Made by a program: the position numbers and the translations under genes. Below, piece after piece: positions 46,216-62,398 of a stretch of 64,000 nucleotides of DNA. The DNA lies in the NCBI GenBank assembly GCA_916048095.2, contig OU696591.1, positions 448,501-512,500 of the forward strand, given 5' to 3'. The number at the start of each line of letters is the position of its first letter. Within the stretch, counting starts at the first letter, position 1. The notes beneath the pieces are model-generated. The model worked only from the letters and a program-made list of their open reading frames with translations, ran no database searches and was not told the DNA's origin. The DNA comes from Sacculina carcini. Taxonomy: Eukaryota; Arthropoda; Thecostraca; Sacculinidae.

Positions 46216-46297
46216 TACCTTCAGCAATCTTTCTCACAGGACTTGAATCGATATTTGCTGTCCCCATATGTGGATTTCTATAATATACATTATTACA

Positions 46298-46380
46298 TGT
46301 TGGAGTGTGAACTGGCAGCACTGGGGCTCGGATCGGGGACGAGTGTGGCGAGTGTTAGGCTTTACGGGGTGAAAAGGAAG
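46298..46380 (+). repeat. Gypsy-2 5' LTR, first part
   Basis: 83 bp matching the first 83 bp of the 3' LTR, ending in AAAAGGAAG, the first copy of the insertion's target duplication. Confidence 0.93.
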
Positions 46381-46475
46381 GAGGTCTATACAAATATCAT
46401 AATCCCAAACTCTGTAATGTGACGTCAGACTAATGATGGTGATGACGTCATGCAAATGACAATGACGTCACTAAT
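46381..46475. repeat. Left terminal region of the 11.5-kb insertion with three TGACGTCA palindromes
   Basis: TGACGTCA occurs at 46,420-46,427, 46,443-46,450 and 46,463-46,470. The right end has one at 57,873-57,880. TGACGTCA is the CREB/ATF consensus, but its repetition in subterminal DNA may reflect transposase binding. Confidence 0.7.
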
Positions 46476-47095
46476 TTTTTAGTTGGCAGCATTTGAAATA
46501 TATTCTACCAAATAGGTGAAGTTCCCGCGCGATCACTTGTGTCTTACCATGTGAATCTGATTGGTCGCTGTTTCCTGTTTGATTGTTATTATCAATACTC
46601 TTAATTTCTAATTTGATGTCTGTTTGCGGTGATTGATATGTGACTCACTATCTATCCCGTTTTGGTGGGTGCTTGTGTTCCACTGACTGGTTGGTTTTAA
46701 CAAACTTTCAGTCGGACCAGATTTTCTCTTTCTTCATTTGCTTTGTGTTGAGTTTCCATAGATGAGCTTAGCAGTTATAATTAACATTGCGATATGCGTG
46801 TTTACATCCGAAATGCTGTGTGTAGACTAACAATATGCATGTGTTCTTCTCATTGTGTAAATGTGTTCATTGCGTTATTTGAATAGTGTAATTTTTATTT
46901 ATTCGTGTGTTCTTTTTATTGTTTCCGTAATTGTATTTATAGCTTGTTTTCTTTTTATTGTAACTGTTTTAGCTTTGTCCGCTTGTTCATAGCTGCCGCG
47001 CGCCCGTGTATGACAGGCGCTATAACAAATATACTGAACTGAACTGAACTAGTTCGTAAATTTCTTTTAAGTCTGACTGATTTAAAAGATTGAGT
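46476..47095. other. Insertion interior: unique DNA and a LINE/SINE 3' end
   Basis: No gene. About 46,980-47,050 reads GACAGGCGCTATAACAAATA followed by (CTGAA)n, a retroposon 3' terminus with its own tail. Confidence 0.5.
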
Positions 47096-47300
47096 ATGTG
47101 CATGTGCATAGGTGTGGGTGTTACATTGTCTGAATCAGTATAGTGCTACTAGGATTGACTGACTTAGGGGCTGTGTACGTGCATTCGCATAGGTATACTT
47201 GTGTTACATTGCCCGAAATGTTATGCTTTTGAGCTTGACTGATTGTAAAATTATGTGCGTACATGTGCGTAGGTGTATGTGGGTTACATGGGCTACATAT
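47096..47300. repeat. Degenerate ~90-bp tandem repeat, 2-3 copies
   Basis: Three copies of GTGCATGTGCATAGGTGT-like sequence followed by GTTACATTG. The first two continue with a GACTGACT- or GACTGATT-containing segment. Confidence 0.6.
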
Positions 47301-47347
47301 ATATGGCAGACAGCATACACAGCAAATCCATACATTCAAGTTAAATA

Positions 47348-48830
47348 AATAAAAATTATCGTCCTGTGTCTCTCCTCAGTTTTCCGTCTAAACTCCTTGA
47401 GTCTGCTATCTACTCTCAACTGTCTCCTTTTCTAAATCAATCACTTTGCTCCGCTCAGTCTGGATTTCGGCCTTCTCATTCTACTGAGTCTGTGTATATT
47501 TCTATCTTTGATCACATTTTCTCTCACTTTGCTTTGGGTCGCTCTGTCCTTGTTCTACTAGACATCTGTCCTTGTTCTACTCTCTGTTCTTGTAGTACTA
47601 GACATGTCCTCTGCTTTTTGATCTCGTTGACCACTCTATTCTCATTGCCGATCTTTATTCTCTTAGTATTTCTTCATCCACCCTTTCTCTCCTCAAATCT
47701 TATCTCACCAATCGAATATATTCTGTGAATATCAATTCTTATCTCTCTTCTGTGTTTCCTCTGTGTTCTGGTGTCCCTCAAGGTTCTCTGCTTGGTCCTT
47801 TACTTTTCAACATCTACATGACCCCACTATGCCCTATTCTTGAACGTCACTCTCTCACCTTTCACGTATATGCCGACGATATTCAGTTTTTCATCCCTCT
47901 TCCTCTTCGCACTCCTTCTTTCATTGCTGATGTTCTTTCTGATGTTTCTGCTTGGGCTGCTTCTAGACGTCTCCTTCTGAATCAATCTAAATCTGAGTTT
48001 GTTTTCCATCCTCCCCGCATTTCTCCTCCTCTTCTTCCTTGGCCTGTCTCCCAGTCAGTGCGTAGTCTTGGTGTGATCTTTGATTCTATGTTTCGTTCTC
48101 CTCTCAAGTCACCTCTATTTCTCGAACATGTCGCCTTATTCTGAGATCTTTATATCCTATTCGCCCGTTTCTTGATCGCCCTTCGGCTATTAAACTATTT
48201 TCATATTCTATTTTCTATATTCTATTTTCATATCTAACTATTTTCATATTGTCCCGTATTGATTATTGTTGTTCACTCTATTTTCACGTTCCCCTTTATT
48301 CCCTCCGCATTCTTCAGCGTGTTATCAACTCTTCTTGTCGTTTTGTCCTGTCTCCTACTCCTTGTCGCCATACTTCTGAATTTTTGTTTCAATTTCGTTT
48401 GCTTCCTATCATCCCCGCATTCATTTTCGCCTGTGTTGTGTTATTTTCAAACTCATTCATGACCCTTCTCAGCCTTCCTATCTTTCTCGCCTTTTGTCTG
48501 AATCTGTTGTTCCTTCTCGACATTCACGCCCACTTGTATGTTCTAGAGCTTTGAATGAGTCTACCTGGTCTTCCAAATCGTTTTTATTTTTTGCTCCGCG
48601 TGCTCAATTGTCTTCCCTCTAATATTGTTCAATCTTCCTCCTTCCATTCGTTCAAGTCCTCTTTGTTTAAATATTTGTTCCTGTTCCTGTATTGTGTATT
48701 GTTTGAGTGTTGTGTGTGTATATGTGTTTGCTATATGTGTTTTCTTCTTGCTATTCAATTGTAATTTTGCGCGCATGTGTATTTATATGCGCTAAAGGAA
48801 ATATATTTATTTATTATTATTATTATTCAT
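47348..48830 (+). mobile_element. L2-like LINE, 5'-truncated and frameshifted
   Basis: RT motifs appear in order across several frames: NYRPVSLLSFPSKLLES, CSAQSGFRPSHSTESV, CSGVPQGSLLGPLLFNIYM, YADDIQFF (catalytic Asp pair), LNQSKSEF, SRIDYCCSLYF and LQRVINSSCRFVL. Frame changes near 47,640-47,720 and 48,140-48,250 and the missing endonuclease make it a dead copy. The 3' end is GCGCTAAAGGAAATATATTT followed by (TTA)n to about 48,827. Confidence 0.8.
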
Positions 48831-49437
48831 ACTATCTTCCTAGCGTAGTTGGCTTTTGTAGTTGTCCGCATGTTATTTTGTGTGTGTGTGTGTGTGCGGT
48901 GCTTTCATGTTTAATGTTTGTATTTTCCCAATTTCGTTGTAGTTTGCCGCGCTTGTGTCCCTGGATGAGCGCTATACAAATAAATGAATGAATGTTATTC
49001 AACGGCGTTAAGGACTGTTATGGGCGTATAAACGAGTGCGCTTGGTAAATGGCTGGCTGGCGTACGCTGCTTGTGACCGCGATGAATGGCTGGTATTCAC
49101 CACTTCTATTTTGCATCGTGGTGGTTACTTCATAGCTAATCTGGTATCCTCTAAATCTAAGATCCTTTAAATATTTTGCTTTCTTCGGTCCACGCATCTA
49201 TAATTATCTTCCTTCTCATATTACTTCACTACTTTCTTATTTTTCAGAGCTGATGCATAGTAGTAAGGCCGGAGTGTTGTCGCTTGTGTATATCACAACG
49301 TTTGCTGGCCTATGTGCCAAACTGTGTCTGTGTTATGTGACTTGCTGTTGTGCTATTGTGTTTTTTGTTTTGTGGTTTTTGTTGTGCGATTTGTGGTGTA
49401 TTTTGCCTTGTGATTTCCTCTGCTTCTTTTTTATGAC
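48831..49437. other. Insertion interior between LINE remnant and Gypsy-1
   Basis: 48,890-49,010 ends in GAGCGCTATACAAATAAATG followed by ATGAATG, another retroposon 3' terminus. 49,253-49,340 is a diverged single copy of the ~160-bp unit arrayed at 54,324-55,950. Confidence 0.55.
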
Positions 49438-49458
49438 ATTCTTGTAGTGTGTGGCTAC

Positions 49459-52400
49459 TCACTGACGTCATCCGCCACTCACTGACGTTGCCTGCGACGG
49501 CTGATTTGCCCGCCTGCATCCGCCTATTGGAGGAGCATCAGCAGTCGCAGCAGAATGTGCTGGTTGAACGCCGGCGCTTCTTCGCCCGTCGACAGCAGGA
49601 CGGCGAAAATGTGGGCGAATTCTTGCGCTCGCTGCGAGAAATCGCTGCCAGCTGCGATTTTTGCGCTGCCTGCCGCGACGAGCGTTTGCGTGACCAGCTT
49701 GTTATGGGGACGTCCGACTCTGCCGCTCTGCACCAGCTCCTGCAAGTCGCGCACAGGGACCTGTCGTTGGACAAGGCACTCAAAATGTGCCAATCGGCTG
49801 AGTCGGCCCGCATCAACGCTGCAGCTATGCGAAGCGCCTCGGCCGATGTGACTGGTTCCCCGGTTCCCCGCACAGAGGTCGCTGCTGTACGCCGTCAGCA
49901 GCCGCGCATGCGCAGTCAACTGAGCCGACAGTCAGATCATGACGATGGCTCCGCCCCTTGTGTGCGGTGTGGGCAGCATCACCAGTCGGCCCCGTGCCGC
50001 GCCGCGGAGAGCTTGTGTCGTCGGTGCGGAAAGCGCGGGCACTACGCGCGCGTCTGCCGCTCATCACAGCCCCGTGCTGGCCGTCGTCGGGACAATTTCG
50101 TCAGAGACGTCGCCGATGACACTGATGATGATGTTGACGATGTTGTGAATGTCAATACACCTGCTTTGTGCTCGTATATCGGCGATGTTATTGATGACAT
50201 TAAACACACGCGCGTAACCGCTATTAGCATCACCGTTTCTGCAGAGGGCCGCGCGCCGCGCGAGGTTAAGTGGCGATGCGATTCCGGCGCCGATGTGTCG
50301 GTAATTGACGCTGGGATTGCGCAGCAACTCGGAGTGGCCAACAATAGTTTGCGCCCACCGCGATCCCGCTTGCGGGTCGCCAACGGTCAGTTACTGCGGT
50401 GTCTGGGCACGTGCGAGGCAGTCTTGCGACTCGGTGATGCCTCCTGCCGTTCCACTCTGTACGTGGTGCCGTCAGTGCGCTGTGCTCTGCTCTGCTGGCG
50501 GGACGCAGTGGAGCTGCGTCTACTGCACCGGGCATTCCCTCGGCAGATGTCTCGCGAACAGCACCTGCAGCAGGTGGCCGCTAGACTGGCAGCCACGCCT
50601 CGGCAATGCCCACGCTGGATCAACACAGCTCAGCCAACAGCGGCGGATCGTCGTGCGCACAGCGAGCAGCTTATAGCGGCCTTCCCTCGTGTGTTCGCCA
50701 CGGACGGTCCTCTCCGGGAGATGAAAGGCGGGGCAATGCGGATCGATCTGCGCGATGAAGCGGTGCCGTACAACGTGACGGCTCCTCGCTCCGTGCCGTT
50801 CTGTCATCGCGCCCAGGCACAACAGCAGCTGGAGCAACTTCAGCAGCAGGGCGTCATCGAGCCGGTCTCCCACCCAACAGACTGGTGCTCACCCATCGTC
50901 GTTGTCGGCAAGCGCAAGGCAGACGGCACGCCAAACGGCTGCCGACTCACGGTAGACTTCACACGCCTCAACCGCTTCGTTCGCCGGCCTACGCATCCGG
51001 TTCGCTCGCCTGTGGAGGCTGTGAGCAGTATGGGTCTCGGCAATCGGTGGTTCACCCAGGTGGATGCATTACAAGGGTACTTTCAGGTGCCCTTGCGGCG
51101 CGAGGACCGAGACCTCACCACCTTCATCACCCCGTGGGGCCGATTCAGGTTCTGTCGCGCGCCGATGGGCCTAGTCTCCAGCGGCGACGAATTCAACCGA
51201 CGCGGCGACGTCGCCTTGGCTGGCCTACCCGACTCCTGCAAGATCGTGGACGACGTGCTGGTATATACCGCCAACTACGACGAGCATCTGCAGCGAGTCT
51301 GGCAGCTACTACAACGCTGCGACGACGCCGGCGTCACGTTGAACCTGCACAAATTTGTGTTCGCCGCCACGTCCGCCAATTTCTGTGGATTCCACATCAA
51401 CGCATCTGGATTCACCGTCGACGAAAAAAAAATTCGGGCCCTGGCTGACTTCCCTACACCGACGGACCTGACCTCACTGCGGTCGTTCTTGGGCTTGGCG
51501 AATCAGTTTGGCGACTTCTCTGACGCCATCGCTTCTGCTGCCGAGCCCCTGCGTCAGCTGCTCCGCAAAGGCGTCGAGTGGCAGTGGTCGTCACAACACG
51601 ACGCTGCTTTCACGGCCGTAAAACGCGCGTTGGCCAGCCCGCCCGTGCTTGGCCACTTCGACCCGACAAGGCCCACCATGTTGGAGACGGACGCGGCACG
51701 ACAGAAAGGCCTCGGGTTTGTCCTCCGCCAGCGGGACGACCAGGGCCGCTGGCAGCTCATCCAGTGTGGGTCGCGATTCATCTCCGACACGGAGAGCCGT
51801 TATGCCGTCTGCGAGCTGGAGATGTTGGCCGTGGTGTGGGCCTGCCAGAAATGCCACCAATATCTGGCTGGTCTGCCCACCTTCAATGTGGTCACCGACC
51901 ACAAGCCGCTGGTGCCCATCCTGAACGAAAAGGCGCTCGGAGACATCTACAATCCTCGTCTGCAGCGCATGCGTCAGCGTCTACTGCACCTGACCCTTGT
52001 CGCCAGCTGGAGGCCAGGGGCACAGCACAACATCGCCGACGCCCTGTCACGCGCACCTTCCCAGCCTGCTGATGCTGACGCGGACGTTGACGAGTGCTCG
52101 TCTGGATTCTTCGTCCAGACGTTGGACGCATTCACAGACGCAGACGACCTGGGTCATCGCACGTCACCGATTGACACCACCCTGGAGGCGGTGCGAGCTG
52201 CGTCTCTGGCCGACGATGAGTGTCGCCAATTGATGACGTACGTGCTGGGCGGTTTCCCTCAGCACAAACATCTGCTGCCCGCCAGTCTCCACCCATTCTG
52301 GGGCGTGCGCGACCAGCTCACTGCCGACCATGGCCTGATCCTGGTCGGCTGCCGCCTGCTTGTGCCTAGGTGTTTGCGGAAGGACACTCTCCGTCGGCTT

Positions 52401-53549
52401 CACGACAGTCACCAGGGGCAGGCCAGGACTGTGCAACGCGCACGGCAAACTGTCTTCTGGCCGGGCCTGAACAATGAGATCGCCACTGCCGTAGCATCAT
52501 GTTCGAGATGTCTAGAATACAAAGACAGCCAGAAAAAGGAGCCGTACCTGACGGAACCGCACCCGACACGTCCTTTTGATTCGGTATCCGCGGATTTCTT
52601 CCAGCACGCTGGGAAGACCTACCTCGTGTACGCGGACCGGTTCTCCAACTGGCCACTGGTGTTCGACTGTGGCCGTGACACCTCGGCTCACCAGCTGGTG
52701 AGGATGCTCCGACATGTGTTCGCCATGACGGGGGTTCCGACCGTACTGTCGTCAGACGGCGGCCCACAGTTCACGGCGCGCCACACGGCCGGATTTCTGC
52801 GACTTTGGCACATACGCCATCGTGTCTCCAGTCCGCACTTCCCGTCTTCTAATGGGCACGCTGAGTCCGCCGTGAAACGGGTGAAGCGGCTCATTCAGAA
52901 GGCGGCGCACGACGGGAATATCGACACAGACGCCTTTGTCGCCGGTCTGTTGGAGCTGTGTAACGCGCCGGGTGCCGACGGTCGCTCTCCCGCGCAGCTT
53001 TTGTACGGCCGCCCCGTGTCGTCCGCCGTTCCCGCGCATCCACGCTCGTTCCTGCCGGAGTGGCAGCCGCCCACCGCTGATTGCGACCGGCGAGCGGCGA
53101 GCTTGCACAACAAGCAGGTCGCCCAATACAACCGGTCGGCTAAGGTGTTGCCGCCGTTGCGGCCCGGCACTACGGTGGCTCTCCAGGACCCGACATCCGG
53201 TCGCTGGGACCGGACTGGCGTGGTCGCCATGACTGGCCGTCGCCGCCAGTACGCTGTGCGCCTGCCACACGGCGGTCTCTACTGGCGCAACCGTAGACAC
53301 CTGCGACCCGCAGCCAACACACCCTCGCCCGTGGTACAGCCGCCGCCATCTGTTGGTACAGCGCCGCTACCGTCGCAGGAGACAAGAAGCAGCCCCGCAT
53401 CACCGCCGCCGCCGCCGGGGGAGAATGTGGGCGGCACATCGGAGGCCTCACGAACTCCGCAACTCCGCCGGAGCGCCCAACCACGCAGACCACAGTCGCA
53501 TCTGAGCGATTACGTCTGCAGAGCCGACAGCGCCCCCTCCACCACTTGA
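49459..53549 (+). pseudogene. Gypsy-1 Gag-Pol polyprotein, N-terminally truncated
   Basis: The frame is open over 1,366 codons to 53,549, starting inside the LTR remnant with no genuine ATG. Order, in frame numbering from 49,449: partial gag; two CCHC knuckles (CVRCG...C about 171, CRRCGKRGHYARVC about 191); aspartic protease DSGAD about 277; reverse transcriptase with KIVDDVLVY about 601; RNase H TDAARQKGLG about 748; integrase HDSHQGQ with HHCC zinc site about 985. The D,D-35-E integrase core is at about D1047, D1103 and E1139. All catalytic motifs are kept although the start is lost, so the deletion is recent or the frame has been little mutated. It is strongly GC-rich compared with its flanks. 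Confidence 0.88.
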
Positions 53550-53557
53550 AGGGGAGA

Positions 53558-53726
53558 TGTAGTGTGTGGCTACACCGCCAGAGGGCGCGAGTGTATTAGG
53601 CGTGGGTGACGCTAACGGCCGTCAGCCAGTGTGTGTTCAGCAGTCTTGGTTTGTGTGTCGCTCCTGTGTATTTGGGTATCGTGTTCCCTATTATTGTATT
53701 GTTGTCTTAATATAATATATCGTACA
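53558..53726 (+). repeat. Gypsy-1 3' LTR
   Basis: 169 bp, TG...CA ends, preceded by the polypurine tract and followed by ATTCT. AATATAATATA near 53,708-53,720 is AT-rich. Confidence 0.88.
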
Positions 53727-53731
53727 ATTCT

Positions 53732-54323
53732 CTCTCAATCTATTCTCTCTCAATCATTGGTTTGTTGGTAATATGAAATGTGTTCGGTGTCTTGGTATAT
53801 TTATCGTTGCATTGTTATTCTGAGTTTTCCAGCGAACAAGGACCTGATCTGAGGGACTCTACGGCTTTCAACACTGCTCTGGGCGTTTGTACGAGTACGG
53901 GCGGTGCATATGTAGTGGCTTCAATTGATTAGTTTTTGTATATGACTACTGTTTATTCCGGCGATCATTTCATATATGTCCATGTCCACTTCATATATGT
54001 CCATGTCCTATTACTGTCGTTTCATTTAATCTTCCTGTTATACATTGCACAGCATCACGTGTTTTGTGTCCTGTGTTGTTTCATGTGTTGTGGCCTCTCG
54101 AGCAAATTTCTCTCCTAATGTCGCTTTTCATTAGTTTGTTATTTTCTTATTTCTGCTCTTATGTAATCTTTCCAGTTTCTGTGAGCACGTGTTTGTGTTT
54201 TGTGTTGTTTTGTGTAATTGTCTCGTGACTTGTATTTTCTGTTGTGACTTCGTGTTATATGGTTTTTTCTTTTCTCTCTTGTGGTCTCTTGATTAGTTTT
54301 CTTTTTCAGTCTCCAGTGAGTGA
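53732..54323. other. Insertion interior after Gypsy-1
   Basis: T-rich sequence with a duplicated ATTCTCTCTCAATC next to the integration site and CATATATGTCCATGTCC twice near 53,971-54,010. No gene. Confidence 0.5.
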
Positions 54324-55950
54324 GTGAATCTTGTCTTTATCAGATCTTGCACATAGTAGTAAGGCCATGCGTTGTCGCTTTGTATATCACAACGTTTGAC
54401 GAACTAAGTGCCAAGCTATGTGTCTGGTCTATTTCTGTATGAATTGTGTCGTGTTTTCTTCTGGCTGTCTATTTTTGAGTGAATCTTCTCTTCTCTATCA
54501 GATCTTGCACATAGTAGTAAGGCCATGCGTTGTCGCTTGTGTATATCACAACGTTTGACGAACTAAGTGCCAAGCTATGCGTCTGGTCTATTTCTGTGTG
54601 AATTGTGTCGTGTTTTCTTCTGGCTGTCTATTTTTGAGTGAATCTTCTCTTCTCTATCAGATCTTGCACATAGTAGTAAGGCCATGCGTTGTCGCTTGTG
54701 TATATCACAACGTTTGACGAACTAAGTGCCAAGCTATGTGTCTGGTCTACATCTGTGTGAATTGTGTCGTGTTCTCTTCTGGTTGTCTATTTTAGAGTGA
54801 ATCTTGTCTTTATCAGATCTTGCACATAGTAGTAAGGCCATGCGTTGTCGCTTGTGTATATCACAACGTTTGACGAACTAAGTGCCAAGCTATGTGTCTG
54901 GTCTATTTCTGTGTGAGTTGTGTCGTGTTCTCTTCTGGCTGTCTATTTTTGAGCGAATCTTCTCTTCTCTATCAGATCTTGCACATAGTAGTAAGGCCAT
55001 GCGTTGTCGCTTGTGTATATCACAACGTTTGACGAACTAAGTGCCAAGCTATGTGTCTGGTCTACCTCTGTGTGAATTGTGTCGTGTTCTCTTCTGGTTG
55101 TCTATTTTTGAGTGAATCTTCTCTTCTCTATCAGATCTTGCGCATAGTGGTAAGGCCATGCGTTGTCGCTTGTGTATATCACAACGTTTGACGAACTAAG
55201 TGCCAAGCTATGTGTCTGGTCTATTTCTGTGTGAGTTGTGTCGTGTTCTCTTCTGGCTGTTTAGTTTTGAGTGAATCTTGTCTTCTCTATCAGATCTTGC
55301 ACATAGTAGTAAGGCCATGCGTTGTCGCTTGTGTATATCACAACGTTTGACGAACTAAGTGCCAAGCTATGTGTCTGGTCTATTTCTGTGTGAATTGTGT
55401 CGTGTTCTCTTCTGGTTGTTTAGTTTTGAGTGAATCTTGTCTTTATCAGATCTTGCACATAGTAGTAAGGCCATGCGTTGTCGCTTGTGTATATCACAAC
55501 GTTTGACGAACTAAGTGCCAAGCTATGTGTCTGGTCTATTTCTGTGTAAATTATGTCGTGTTCTCTTCTGGTTGTCTATTTTTGAGTGAATCTTGTCTTC
55601 TTTATCAGATCTTGCACATAGTAGTAAGGCCATGCGTTGTCGCTTGTGTATATCACAACGTTTGACGAACTAAGTGCCAAGCTATGTGTCTGGTCTATTT
55701 CTGTGTGAGTTGTGTCGTGTTCTCTTCTGGTTGTCTATTTTTGAGTGAATCTTGTCTTCTTTATCAGATCTTGCACATAGTAGTAAGGCCATGCGTTGTC
55801 GCTTGTGTATATCACAACGTTTGACGAACTAAGTGCCAAGCTATGTGTCTGGTCTATTTCTGTGTAAATTATGTCGTGTTCTCTTCTGATTGTCTATTAT
55901 CTGAAGCTATGTGTCTGATCTACCTCTGTGTGAATTGTGTTGTGTCTTGT
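54324..55950. repeat. ~160-bp tandem array, 10 copies
   Basis: Ten copies of a 154-162-bp unit containing AGATCTTGCACATAGTAGTA, AAGGCCATGCGTTGTCGC, TTGTGTATATCACAACG and GAACTAAGTGCCAAGCTATG. Copies are highly similar, with CTTTAT/CTCTAT and CTGGCTG/CTGGTTG variants. The unit holds a small inverted repeat, CGTTGT...ACAACG with inner TTGTG...CACAA. A partial unit closes the array. There is no long open frame. Confidence 0.92.
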
Positions 55951-57660
55951 GTTCTCTACTGCTGGTCTAGTTTTCAGTTGAAACTTTTCTAGTTCTTCTT
56001 GATGGGATGTCTTTCTTTTCGACCCCATGCTTGATTTAGCATTTCATTCAGCATTCCTACTAAACATTTGTTTCATATTTTTTATTAGTTATTTCCTTTT
56101 GTTTCACTTTTTCCATTTTCTACATCATGGATGCCATTGTTTTTGCATGATTGCCTTTGGAGTTTTGTTGTTTGATTTTAATATTGATAAGGTTCTACGT
56201 GCGATTGTTTTTTTGTTTATCGGTTGTTGAATCGGGAAAATATATTTCAACTAGGGGTTAGGCTAAAACATCAATGTGGTTCATTGGATGTCTTAGCTTA
56301 ACCTATGTGTCTTTCTCTATCAATATGATCCATGATTTGATTGAAGACGGTATAAGATCTGTGATGAGTAGTGCTCAGACAAGATGTTAAAGTCCTAAAG
56401 GAGCCAATGTGACTATTAGTTGGACTGTTGAGAGTGCCCTCTATATATCTATGAGAAATTAACTATTAAGCGATCTTTCCAAATTTGTGTGCAATGCATT
56501 TAGCTCGTAATATAGCTACAAATGAAGTTGTCTATAATGTTAGAAATGGAATTGTTAGCGATCTGCTTTTGTACAATTTGTTCAACCAGAAATAAAGTAT
56601 TCTCCATATAGATATTCTCCACAATTAATTCAACCCGAAATAAAGTATTCTCCATATAGAGTTGAATTGAGCGATCTACTTTCTCGCATTTTTGTACAGT
56701 ACACAAGTTTGTCAAATGAAATCCAGTGTAGCATTGTGTTTCCATCATACAACATTTTGTACCGCGCATACAGGGACACGGCAGAACTTGCACAGCTCTA
56801 ACGTTTTGAGTGTATGGATATATGATTTTCCTGCAAAACAAAAAGCTGGGAGGAATAAACATGACATATTTGCATCAACTCTGTTGTTTACCTCCAACTA
56901 GTTTCGCACGTCTCGTTGATTAATCTACGGATTGTTATACTCTGATATTGTACTAAGATCTAAGAATCTTCGTTGTGTTATAATGTTTGTAGGACATTCA
57001 CGGAATAAAACCTGAGCAACATTGTCAACCTTGTGTTTGTCAAGGCTCCGGGATGACAGCCATCAATTGTGTTCAAGGATGACTCCCATAGTATGAGATG
57101 AGAGTATACGCAATAAACTGGGGCTTTTTCTACGTTCGTTACGTATGTGCGTTTCTACTGTAGCGAACGCAAATACGGTAGGAACAATACCCGTGTATTA
57201 TCGCCATCTCTCTTGACAAGCGAATGAATTCGGCACTGGTTGAGCTTACACGCACGCTAAACTATAGGTCGTTGACCCCACCGGTCACGTGCGGTCACAA
57301 TGCTCCCTGCGCCAGGCGCGTTGCTCAGGTTTTACATCAAGGCTATACAACAATTACTAAAAGTCAATGTACGTACAATTATGCATATCATATCTGCACA
57401 TATCATATCATACCGAATCATATCTGCACATATCTATGTATGCAGACTTCATAACAACAAATTTATTTTGTATAGCGCACACATTAATCAGAGGCGCGAA
57501 ATGGTATAAAATAATTGGACGAAAGAAAACAAAATTAAGTAGCTCAGTACGATGCATGGATATGTAATCCGTATAGAATATGTGAGACTGAATGACACTG
57601 CCTGATCTTATATTGTGTTCTTATACTGTTCTATCTGCTAAGGAAATTATATGAATGAGA
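55951..57660. other. Insertion interior, AT-rich
   Basis: No gene supported. About 56,587-56,615 and 56,635-56,662 are a direct duplication (GAAATAAAGTATTCTCCATA). About 57,445-57,500 reads on the minus strand as a GCGCTATACAAAATAAAT-type retroposon 3' end. Confidence 0.5.
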
Positions 57661-57681
57661 AAAACAATGAAATAACTAAAT

Positions 57682-57929
57682 TTTCAAATGTGGAAATATA
57701 GCGAAACTCTAGATAGCGAACAACTGGTAAGCCTACATTTATGGTACGTCACTAAATAACTATGGTACGTAACTAAATAAATAAATTCTCAAATGTGGAA
57801 ATATAGCGAAACTCTAGATAGCGAGCAACTGGCAAGCCTACATTTATGGTACGTCACTGTAAACGTCATCAGTGACGTCACGCTAAAGGAAAGAGTATGG
57901 GATAAATTTAGACATTGTGTCTCAACCTC
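57682..57929. repeat. Right subterminal direct repeat and right end of the 11.5-kb insertion
   Basis: TCAAATGTGGAAATATAGCG through CATTTATGGTACGTCACT occurs twice (57,682-57,754 and 57,790-57,857) with a few differences. The right inverted terminus follows, with TGACGTCA at 57,873 and the end CTCAACCTC at 57,929. Confidence 0.8.
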
Positions 57930-57938
57930 AAAAGGAAG

Positions 57939-58056
57939 CGTGTTATTTCTGGTGTCTGATTGTGAATGTTCTGGACGGTTTGACTTTATTGTTTGTTTAT
58001 ATAATTTTCTGGGCAGCATAGAAAATATATTACGTTCATTGACGGTCTTTCGAACA
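57939..58056 (+). repeat. Gypsy-2 5' LTR, second part
   Basis: 118 bp matching positions 84-201 of the 3' LTR, ending TTCGAACA. The last A is the first base of the polyprotein ATG. Confidence 0.93.
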
Positions 58057-62192: not shown

Positions 62193-62393
62193 TGTTGGAG
62201 TGTGAACTGGCAGCACTGGGGCTCGGATCGGGGACGAGTGTGGCGAGTGTTAGGCTTTACGGGGTGAAAAGGAAGCGTGTTATTTCTGGTGTCTGATTGT
62301 GAATGTTCTGGACGGTTTGACTTTATTGTTTGTTTATATAATTTTCTGGGCAGCATAGAAAATATATTACGTTCATTGACGGTCTTTCGAACA
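62193..62393 (+). repeat. Gypsy-2 3' LTR
   Basis: 201 bp, TGTTGGAG to TTCGAACA, followed by the TTACA duplication. It serves as the uninterrupted reference for the split 5' LTR. Confidence 0.94.
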
Positions 62394-62398
62394 TTACA

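Follow-up and report, generated by a model that had tools for sequence, protein, structure and literature searches.

An 11,549-bp mobile element, inserted in the 5' LTR of the retrotransposon Gypsy-2, is a recent insertion that very probably belongs to a non-autonomous Mutator-like (MULE) family; for the family as a whole, trans movement is the most likely mechanism. The insertion lies in the window, by which we mean the whole 64,000-nucleotide stretch of Sacculina carcini DNA that was analyzed (C29:448501-512500, in a 264-Mb genome of 43 contigs). Members of the family have a common pair of ends and 9- to 10-bp duplications at different targets, and they include near-identical sister copies and subfamilies defined by internal deletions that their members share.

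Insertion site and ends of the element

The features of the locus, in positions of the window, are as follows.

46298-46380, forward strand: part 1 of the split 5' LTR of Gypsy-2, the insertion host
46372-46380, no strand: left copy of the 9-bp target site duplication AAAAGGAAG
46381-57929, forward strand: entire element, 11,549 bp, probably a non-autonomous MULE
46381-46435, forward strand: 5' terminal region, its 55 bp 91% identical to the 5' end of a decayed element with a MULE transposase domain (C19)
46381-47349, forward strand: 5' family segment, with at least 85% of its length aligned in 18 of the 20 copies read, window copy included
46420-46470, no strand: three subterminal TGACGTCA palindromes (46420, 46443, and 46463)
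47351-49437, forward strand: remnants of the family-wide LINE ORF2, followed by a further LINE-like tail recognized by eye
49438-49442, no strand: left copy of the ATTCT duplication of Gypsy-1
49443-53726, forward strand: Gypsy-1, a private secondary insertion, with all but 16 bp of its 5' LTR lost and its 3' LTR at about 53558-53726
53727-53731, no strand: right copy of the ATTCT duplication of Gypsy-1, within a 15-bp tandem duplication
54321-55898, forward strand: 159-bp satellite array of 10 units, a family component
55904-57545, forward strand: 3' family segment
57670-57858, forward strand: tandem duplication close to the 3' end, 1.8 copies of 105 bp
57860-57929, reverse strand: 3' terminal region, which matches the 5' end imperfectly in inverted orientation and has a TGACGTCA motif at 57873
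57930-57938, no strand: right copy of the 9-bp target site duplication AAAAGGAAG
57939-58056, forward strand: part 2 of the split 5' LTR of Gypsy-2
62193-62393, forward strand: unsplit 3' LTR of Gypsy-2

The insert begins with GAGGT, ends with ACCTC, and is flanked by AAAAGGAAG on both sides. When the two parts of the interrupted LTR are joined, they reproduce the 3' LTR with 0 differences in 201 positions, and Gypsy-2 has a 5-bp duplication of its own (TTACA, at 46293-46297 and 62394-62398). These observations confirm what the initial annotation had proposed, namely, an insertion with these terminal bases that split a young LTR and duplicated 9 bp.

Alignment of the two ends also bore out the claim that they form imperfect inverted repeats. 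The match extends over about 55 bp and includes GAGGT, TCCCA-ACT, and GTGACGTC; its score is 52, against a maximum of 38 among 1000 single-base shuffles. In 19 of the 20 copies read, the motif TGACGTCA occurs at positions 40, 63, and 83 of the element (the remaining one, L058, is without the middle motif); near the 3' end, all 20 have it once. Long terminal inverted repeats are a common MULE trait, but those of this element are short and imperfect; PMC6446971 describes some MULEs as lacking the long form.

A dispersed family and its link to MULEs

A genome search with both ends recovered a family. With at most 3 mismatches, 48 places matched 29 bases taken from the 5' end and 60 matched 32 bases taken from the 3' end; reversed control patterns matched none. 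Position and orientation joined these ends into 40 pairs, leaving 8 5' ends and 20 3' ends unpaired. The pairs span 4,178 to 36,745 bp, and 33 of the 40 fall between 6 and 12 kb. Exact 9-bp duplications flank 32 pairs, and exact 10-bp duplications flank 5 more, including the 36.7-kb pair (C7:4308044-4344788); with the 48 and 60 end matches, these duplications rule out that the ends occur nowhere else. By eye, the 32 sites with 9-bp duplications show no strong sequence preference. No duplication was found at three pairs: L049 has lost the last 6 bp of the element, the pair at C7:9609548-9621479 may consist of two unrelated ends, and the third is at C10:1619717. On C10, one copy has also inserted at the extreme end of another, and the 9-bp duplication of the nested copy (GACCTCATC) takes in the terminal 6 bp of its host copy plus 3 bp of flank.

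We read 20 copies in full, including the window copy and a reference copy, L054. The 5' and 3' segments and the satellite array are common to them, the exceptions being private insertions, small deletions, and L058, a diverged copy that differs from the majority by about 9% in the 3' segment. Over the 969 bases of the 5' segment, the window copy shows 1 difference from each of L039 and L040 and 2 differences from L041; pairwise differences average 2.4% among the 18 copies compared (L048 and L058, aligned over less than 85%, were left out). Judged by these near-identical sister copies and by the identical LTRs, the insertion is recent, as had been suggested, an age that is relative only and implies no absolute date.

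The length of the duplications bears on the superfamily, which the initial annotation had left between hAT and Mutator. Target site duplications of hAT elements are 8 bp, and in none of the 37 pairs with a duplication did the longest match stop at 8 bp. Duplications of MULEs range from 8 to 11 bp (PMC6446971) and are often 9 bp, as in 32 of our 40 pairs, with 10 bp in another 5.

The only direct link to MULEs comes from a diverged 5' end on C19, whose match to the family end starts at base 1 and covers 55 bp at 91% identity. About 0.8 kb inside this end, on the same strand, lies a decayed MULE transposase domain (Pfam E value, 2.7e-9); no 3' end was found for this decayed element. Chance would be expected to produce about 0.02 such associations (52 MULE matches × 108 ends × 1 kb over 264 Mb). 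The 52 matches are those of a genome scan for PF10551. None lies inside any of the 40 pairs, and none besides C19 lies inside a family end; apart from C19, the 108 listed ends have just one match within 60 kb, C7:9623188, which is 1.7 kb outside a family end. Autonomous MULEs carry their own transposase, and with no PF10551 in the pairs, the family is therefore at most a non-autonomous member. Among the frames listed for the insert, we recognized no DNA-transposon transposase; the two that were scanned against Pfam gave retrotransposon domains only. Together with the family ends and the 9-bp duplications, these results support the earlier description of a large, recent, non-autonomous DNA transposon.

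A helper was also sought. The nearest relative of the C19 fragment is an open frame of 438 aa on C10 (53% identity over 76 aa), and the C19 transposase region matches by tblastx, in several pieces, the stretch leading into this MULE frame; in the 1.96 kb fetched, no convincing family end was found around or upstream of it. A diverged 5' end on C12 (1.8 kb fetched) resembles the three copies set against it over no more than its first 86 bp. When the C19 transposase region was compared with the 20 copies by tblastx, the first 20 matches listed comprised only the shared end and short weak stretches, and we therefore presume that the interior of the family retains no remnant of a transposase. The search for an autonomous relative thus yielded the decayed C19 element with its 5' end, but no intact helper with family ends among the 52 PF10551 matches.

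The assignment to MULEs rests on the 9- to 10-bp duplications and the C19 end with its MULE domain; the latter is a single decayed copy, and none of the copies read has a recognized MULE transposase. It is improbable that the family is instead a non-autonomous element of another superfamily with 8- to 9-bp duplications (hAT, Merlin, or KDZ) and that the C19 association is coincidental. Domains of hAT elements are abundant in the genome (150 scored of 722 candidates), one of those scored is found 3.4 kb inward of an unpaired family 5' end, and the family ends are short and imperfect; however, the duplications are exactly 9 or 10 bp in 37 of 40 pairs and never stop at 8, and the C19 domain lies just inside a family end in the same orientation. 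Because 3 of the 150 scored hAT matches have a family end within 10 kb (no pair encloses any of them), transposase neighborhood alone is weak evidence. Both duplication length and the C19 relative favor Mutator.

In the mechanism that we propose for this MULE family, a transposase made elsewhere would bind the ends in trans, perhaps through the repeated TGACGTCA motifs, cut the element out, and paste it into a 9-bp staggered cut. Copy number could have grown through repair or replication of the donor sites, internal deletions of the LINE cargo might stem from incomplete repair, and slippage or unequal exchange might account for shifts in satellite length.

Cargo of the family

The LINE and the satellite had been described as passengers of the insert. 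Both are indeed carried, but they are not chance passengers of the window copy: LINE parts lie between the 5' segment and the satellite in 19 of the 20 copies read, and the satellite is present in all 20, its unit of about 159 bp repeated 3 to 15.8 times. Four copies (L045, L049, L051, and L054) keep most of the LINE endonuclease and reverse transcriptase region, the reverse transcriptase scoring over the Pfam cut-off and the endonuclease weakly, below it. One deletion, common to 7 of the 20 copies, has removed the endonuclease part; the window copy belongs to this subfamily and, like it, keeps part of the reverse transcriptase. A second deletion is common to 4 other copies. The same LINE was found outside any family copy at 21 of 40 listed places (the best 40 of 509 candidates scored), and 2 more of the listed places are inside copies with an unpaired end.

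These data also speak to whether the LINE itself drives mobility, the unit being a retroelement with unusual ends. The four copies that keep most of LINE ORF2, with a reverse transcriptase over the cut-off, speak for such a scheme, but we regard it as very unlikely: copies in which the LINE is partly or nearly wholly deleted retain the same ends and duplications, the LINE also exists outside the family, and target-primed reverse transcription does not fit fixed 9- to 10-bp duplications with defined inverted ends. That the insert is an assembly artefact or a segmental duplication rather than a product of transposition has next to no probability, for although some 3' ends (C35 and C1) are arranged in tandem or at regular spacing, the empty site is restored exactly (201/201) and exact 9- to 10-bp duplications of differing sequence occur at 37 of 40 loci; segmental duplication of the paired copies is ruled out because their flanks and duplications differ.

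Of 263 satellite matches in total, 150 were listed, 143 of them inside paired copies and 7 at 2 to 7 kb inside an unpaired family end. Because this search scored the best 40 of 92 first-look candidates, rare satellite arrays may exist elsewhere. Part of the satellite unit resembles 98 bp of the LINE-like tail (about 80% identity), which suggests that the satellite may have arisen from this tail.

Gypsy-1 is a different kind of passenger. The initial annotation had taken it for an older, dead element, a view that the comparison with other copies does not support. Among the 19 other copies read (reference L054 counted), 17 run through its insertion site without a break, the region being absent from L053 and L058, and its left flank differs by 2 bp from that of the sister copies. 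Given the uninterrupted sites and its own ATTCT duplication, we conclude from these alignments that Gypsy-1 is a young, private insertion that entered the window copy or its direct donor late, after the family had spread. It retains a single unbroken 1370-aa frame, in which reverse transcriptase, RNase H, and integrase score over Pfam cut-offs and protease and zinc-knuckle matches score below them. A 5'-truncated retrocopy is ruled out by the 16 bp of 5' LTR, the 3' LTR, and the ATTCT duplication.

Relation to known elements and implications

Muta1 of Aedes aegypti makes 8- or 9-bp duplications and has subterminal repeats and non-autonomous derivatives (PMC5225508). Like those derivatives, the present copies have shared ends, different or deleted interiors, subterminal repeated motifs, and little target preference; movement by a helper in trans has been shown for the Muta1 derivatives in yeast and would apply here by analogy. 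The inverted repeats of Muta1 are 145 bp long (PMC5225508), whereas those described here are imperfect over about 55 bp, and 33 of 40 pairs span 6 to 12 kb.

Foldback elements are likewise non-autonomous, FB4 with 9- to 10-bp duplications (PMC8277862) and Tetris with internal tandem repeats (PMC4079207). Foldback elements are characterized by long inverted repeats with tandem units. The FB4 repeats are about 700 bp long (PMC8277862), in contrast to the short ends found here, and the Tetris repeats lie within its inverted repeats (PMC4079207), whereas the window copy has a single internal satellite array, within which no long inverted repeats were reported. Rehavkus is similar in its 9-bp duplications and inverted repeats of 26 to 400 bp, and PMC6446971 lists for it a minisatellite "in Cterm"; the satellite of the present family resembles instead the LINE-like tail.

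As in Pack-MULEs and Pack-TIR elements (PMC8277862), a MULE-like shell appears to take foreign DNA to many loci. Unlike theirs, the recognized cargo is a LINE plus a satellite, and the frames scanned gave no recognizable host gene fragment: in 8 family-copy frames, only reverse transcriptase scored over the Pfam cut-off, with endonuclease and one other match below it. This check detects Pfam domains only, and fragments that contain none would escape it. Judged by titles and the openings of abstracts, the literature yielded no MULE with a family-wide LINE and an internal satellite, although we do not claim that none has been described. The family is therefore new but its kind is known; what is unusual is the size of its non-autonomous copies and the family-wide cargo of LINE plus satellite.

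A bolder reading, which we consider unlikely, is that a MULE family, while still able to move as a unit of tens of kilobases, stably carries a retrotransposon together with a satellite that originated within that family. The pair that spans 36.7 kb with a 10-bp duplication points to movement at that scale, and the location of all listed satellite matches in or beside family copies points to an origin of the satellite within the family. If true, the family would be a transposon with long cargo in which satellite DNA is bred.

The 40 end pairs, 37 of them with exact duplications, make it possible to trace a cargo LINE, its partial losses by subfamily, the changing length of the satellite, and renewed spread, and the defined pair of ends provides a handle for finding the missing helper.

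Family copies with additional internal DNA

The longest of these is a pair of family ends at C7:4308044-4344788, which spans 36.7 kb, is flanked by a target duplication of 10 bp, and keeps the usual order of LINE and satellite. Judged from match positions, the surplus DNA would fall into two blocks, one of about 6 kb ahead of the LINE and one of about 20 kb that separates the satellite from the 3′ end. The copy L043/L044 (C1:13922995-13934955) carries an extra insertion of about 3 kb that is private to it. This insertion contains an open frame which by eye looks hAT-like and which had no match in Pfam.

Repeated 3′ ends and MULE fragments

Six family 3′ ends lie within C1:1834335-2476758. Because all six are on the same strand and stand about 120 to 150 kb apart, this even series suggests a large tandem segmental duplication. 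A tighter cluster on C35 (L032 to L035, C35:3220115-3235155) comprises four 3′ ends, each the last ~750 bp of the family, at unit spacings of 4.1, 4.1, and 6.7 kb; upstream in L032, on the opposite strand, is a 311-aa open frame that matched nothing in Pfam. At C8:7413444-7434706, matches to the MULE transposase domain (PF10551) recur on one strand at intervals of about 6.5 kb, and this region is a tandem array with MULE fragments in it.

A conserved subterminal palindrome

Both ends of the element contain the CRE-like palindrome TGACGTCA (window positions 46420, 46443, 46463, and 57873). The palindrome is kept in nearly all of 20 family copies and might be a site for the transposase or for a host factor.
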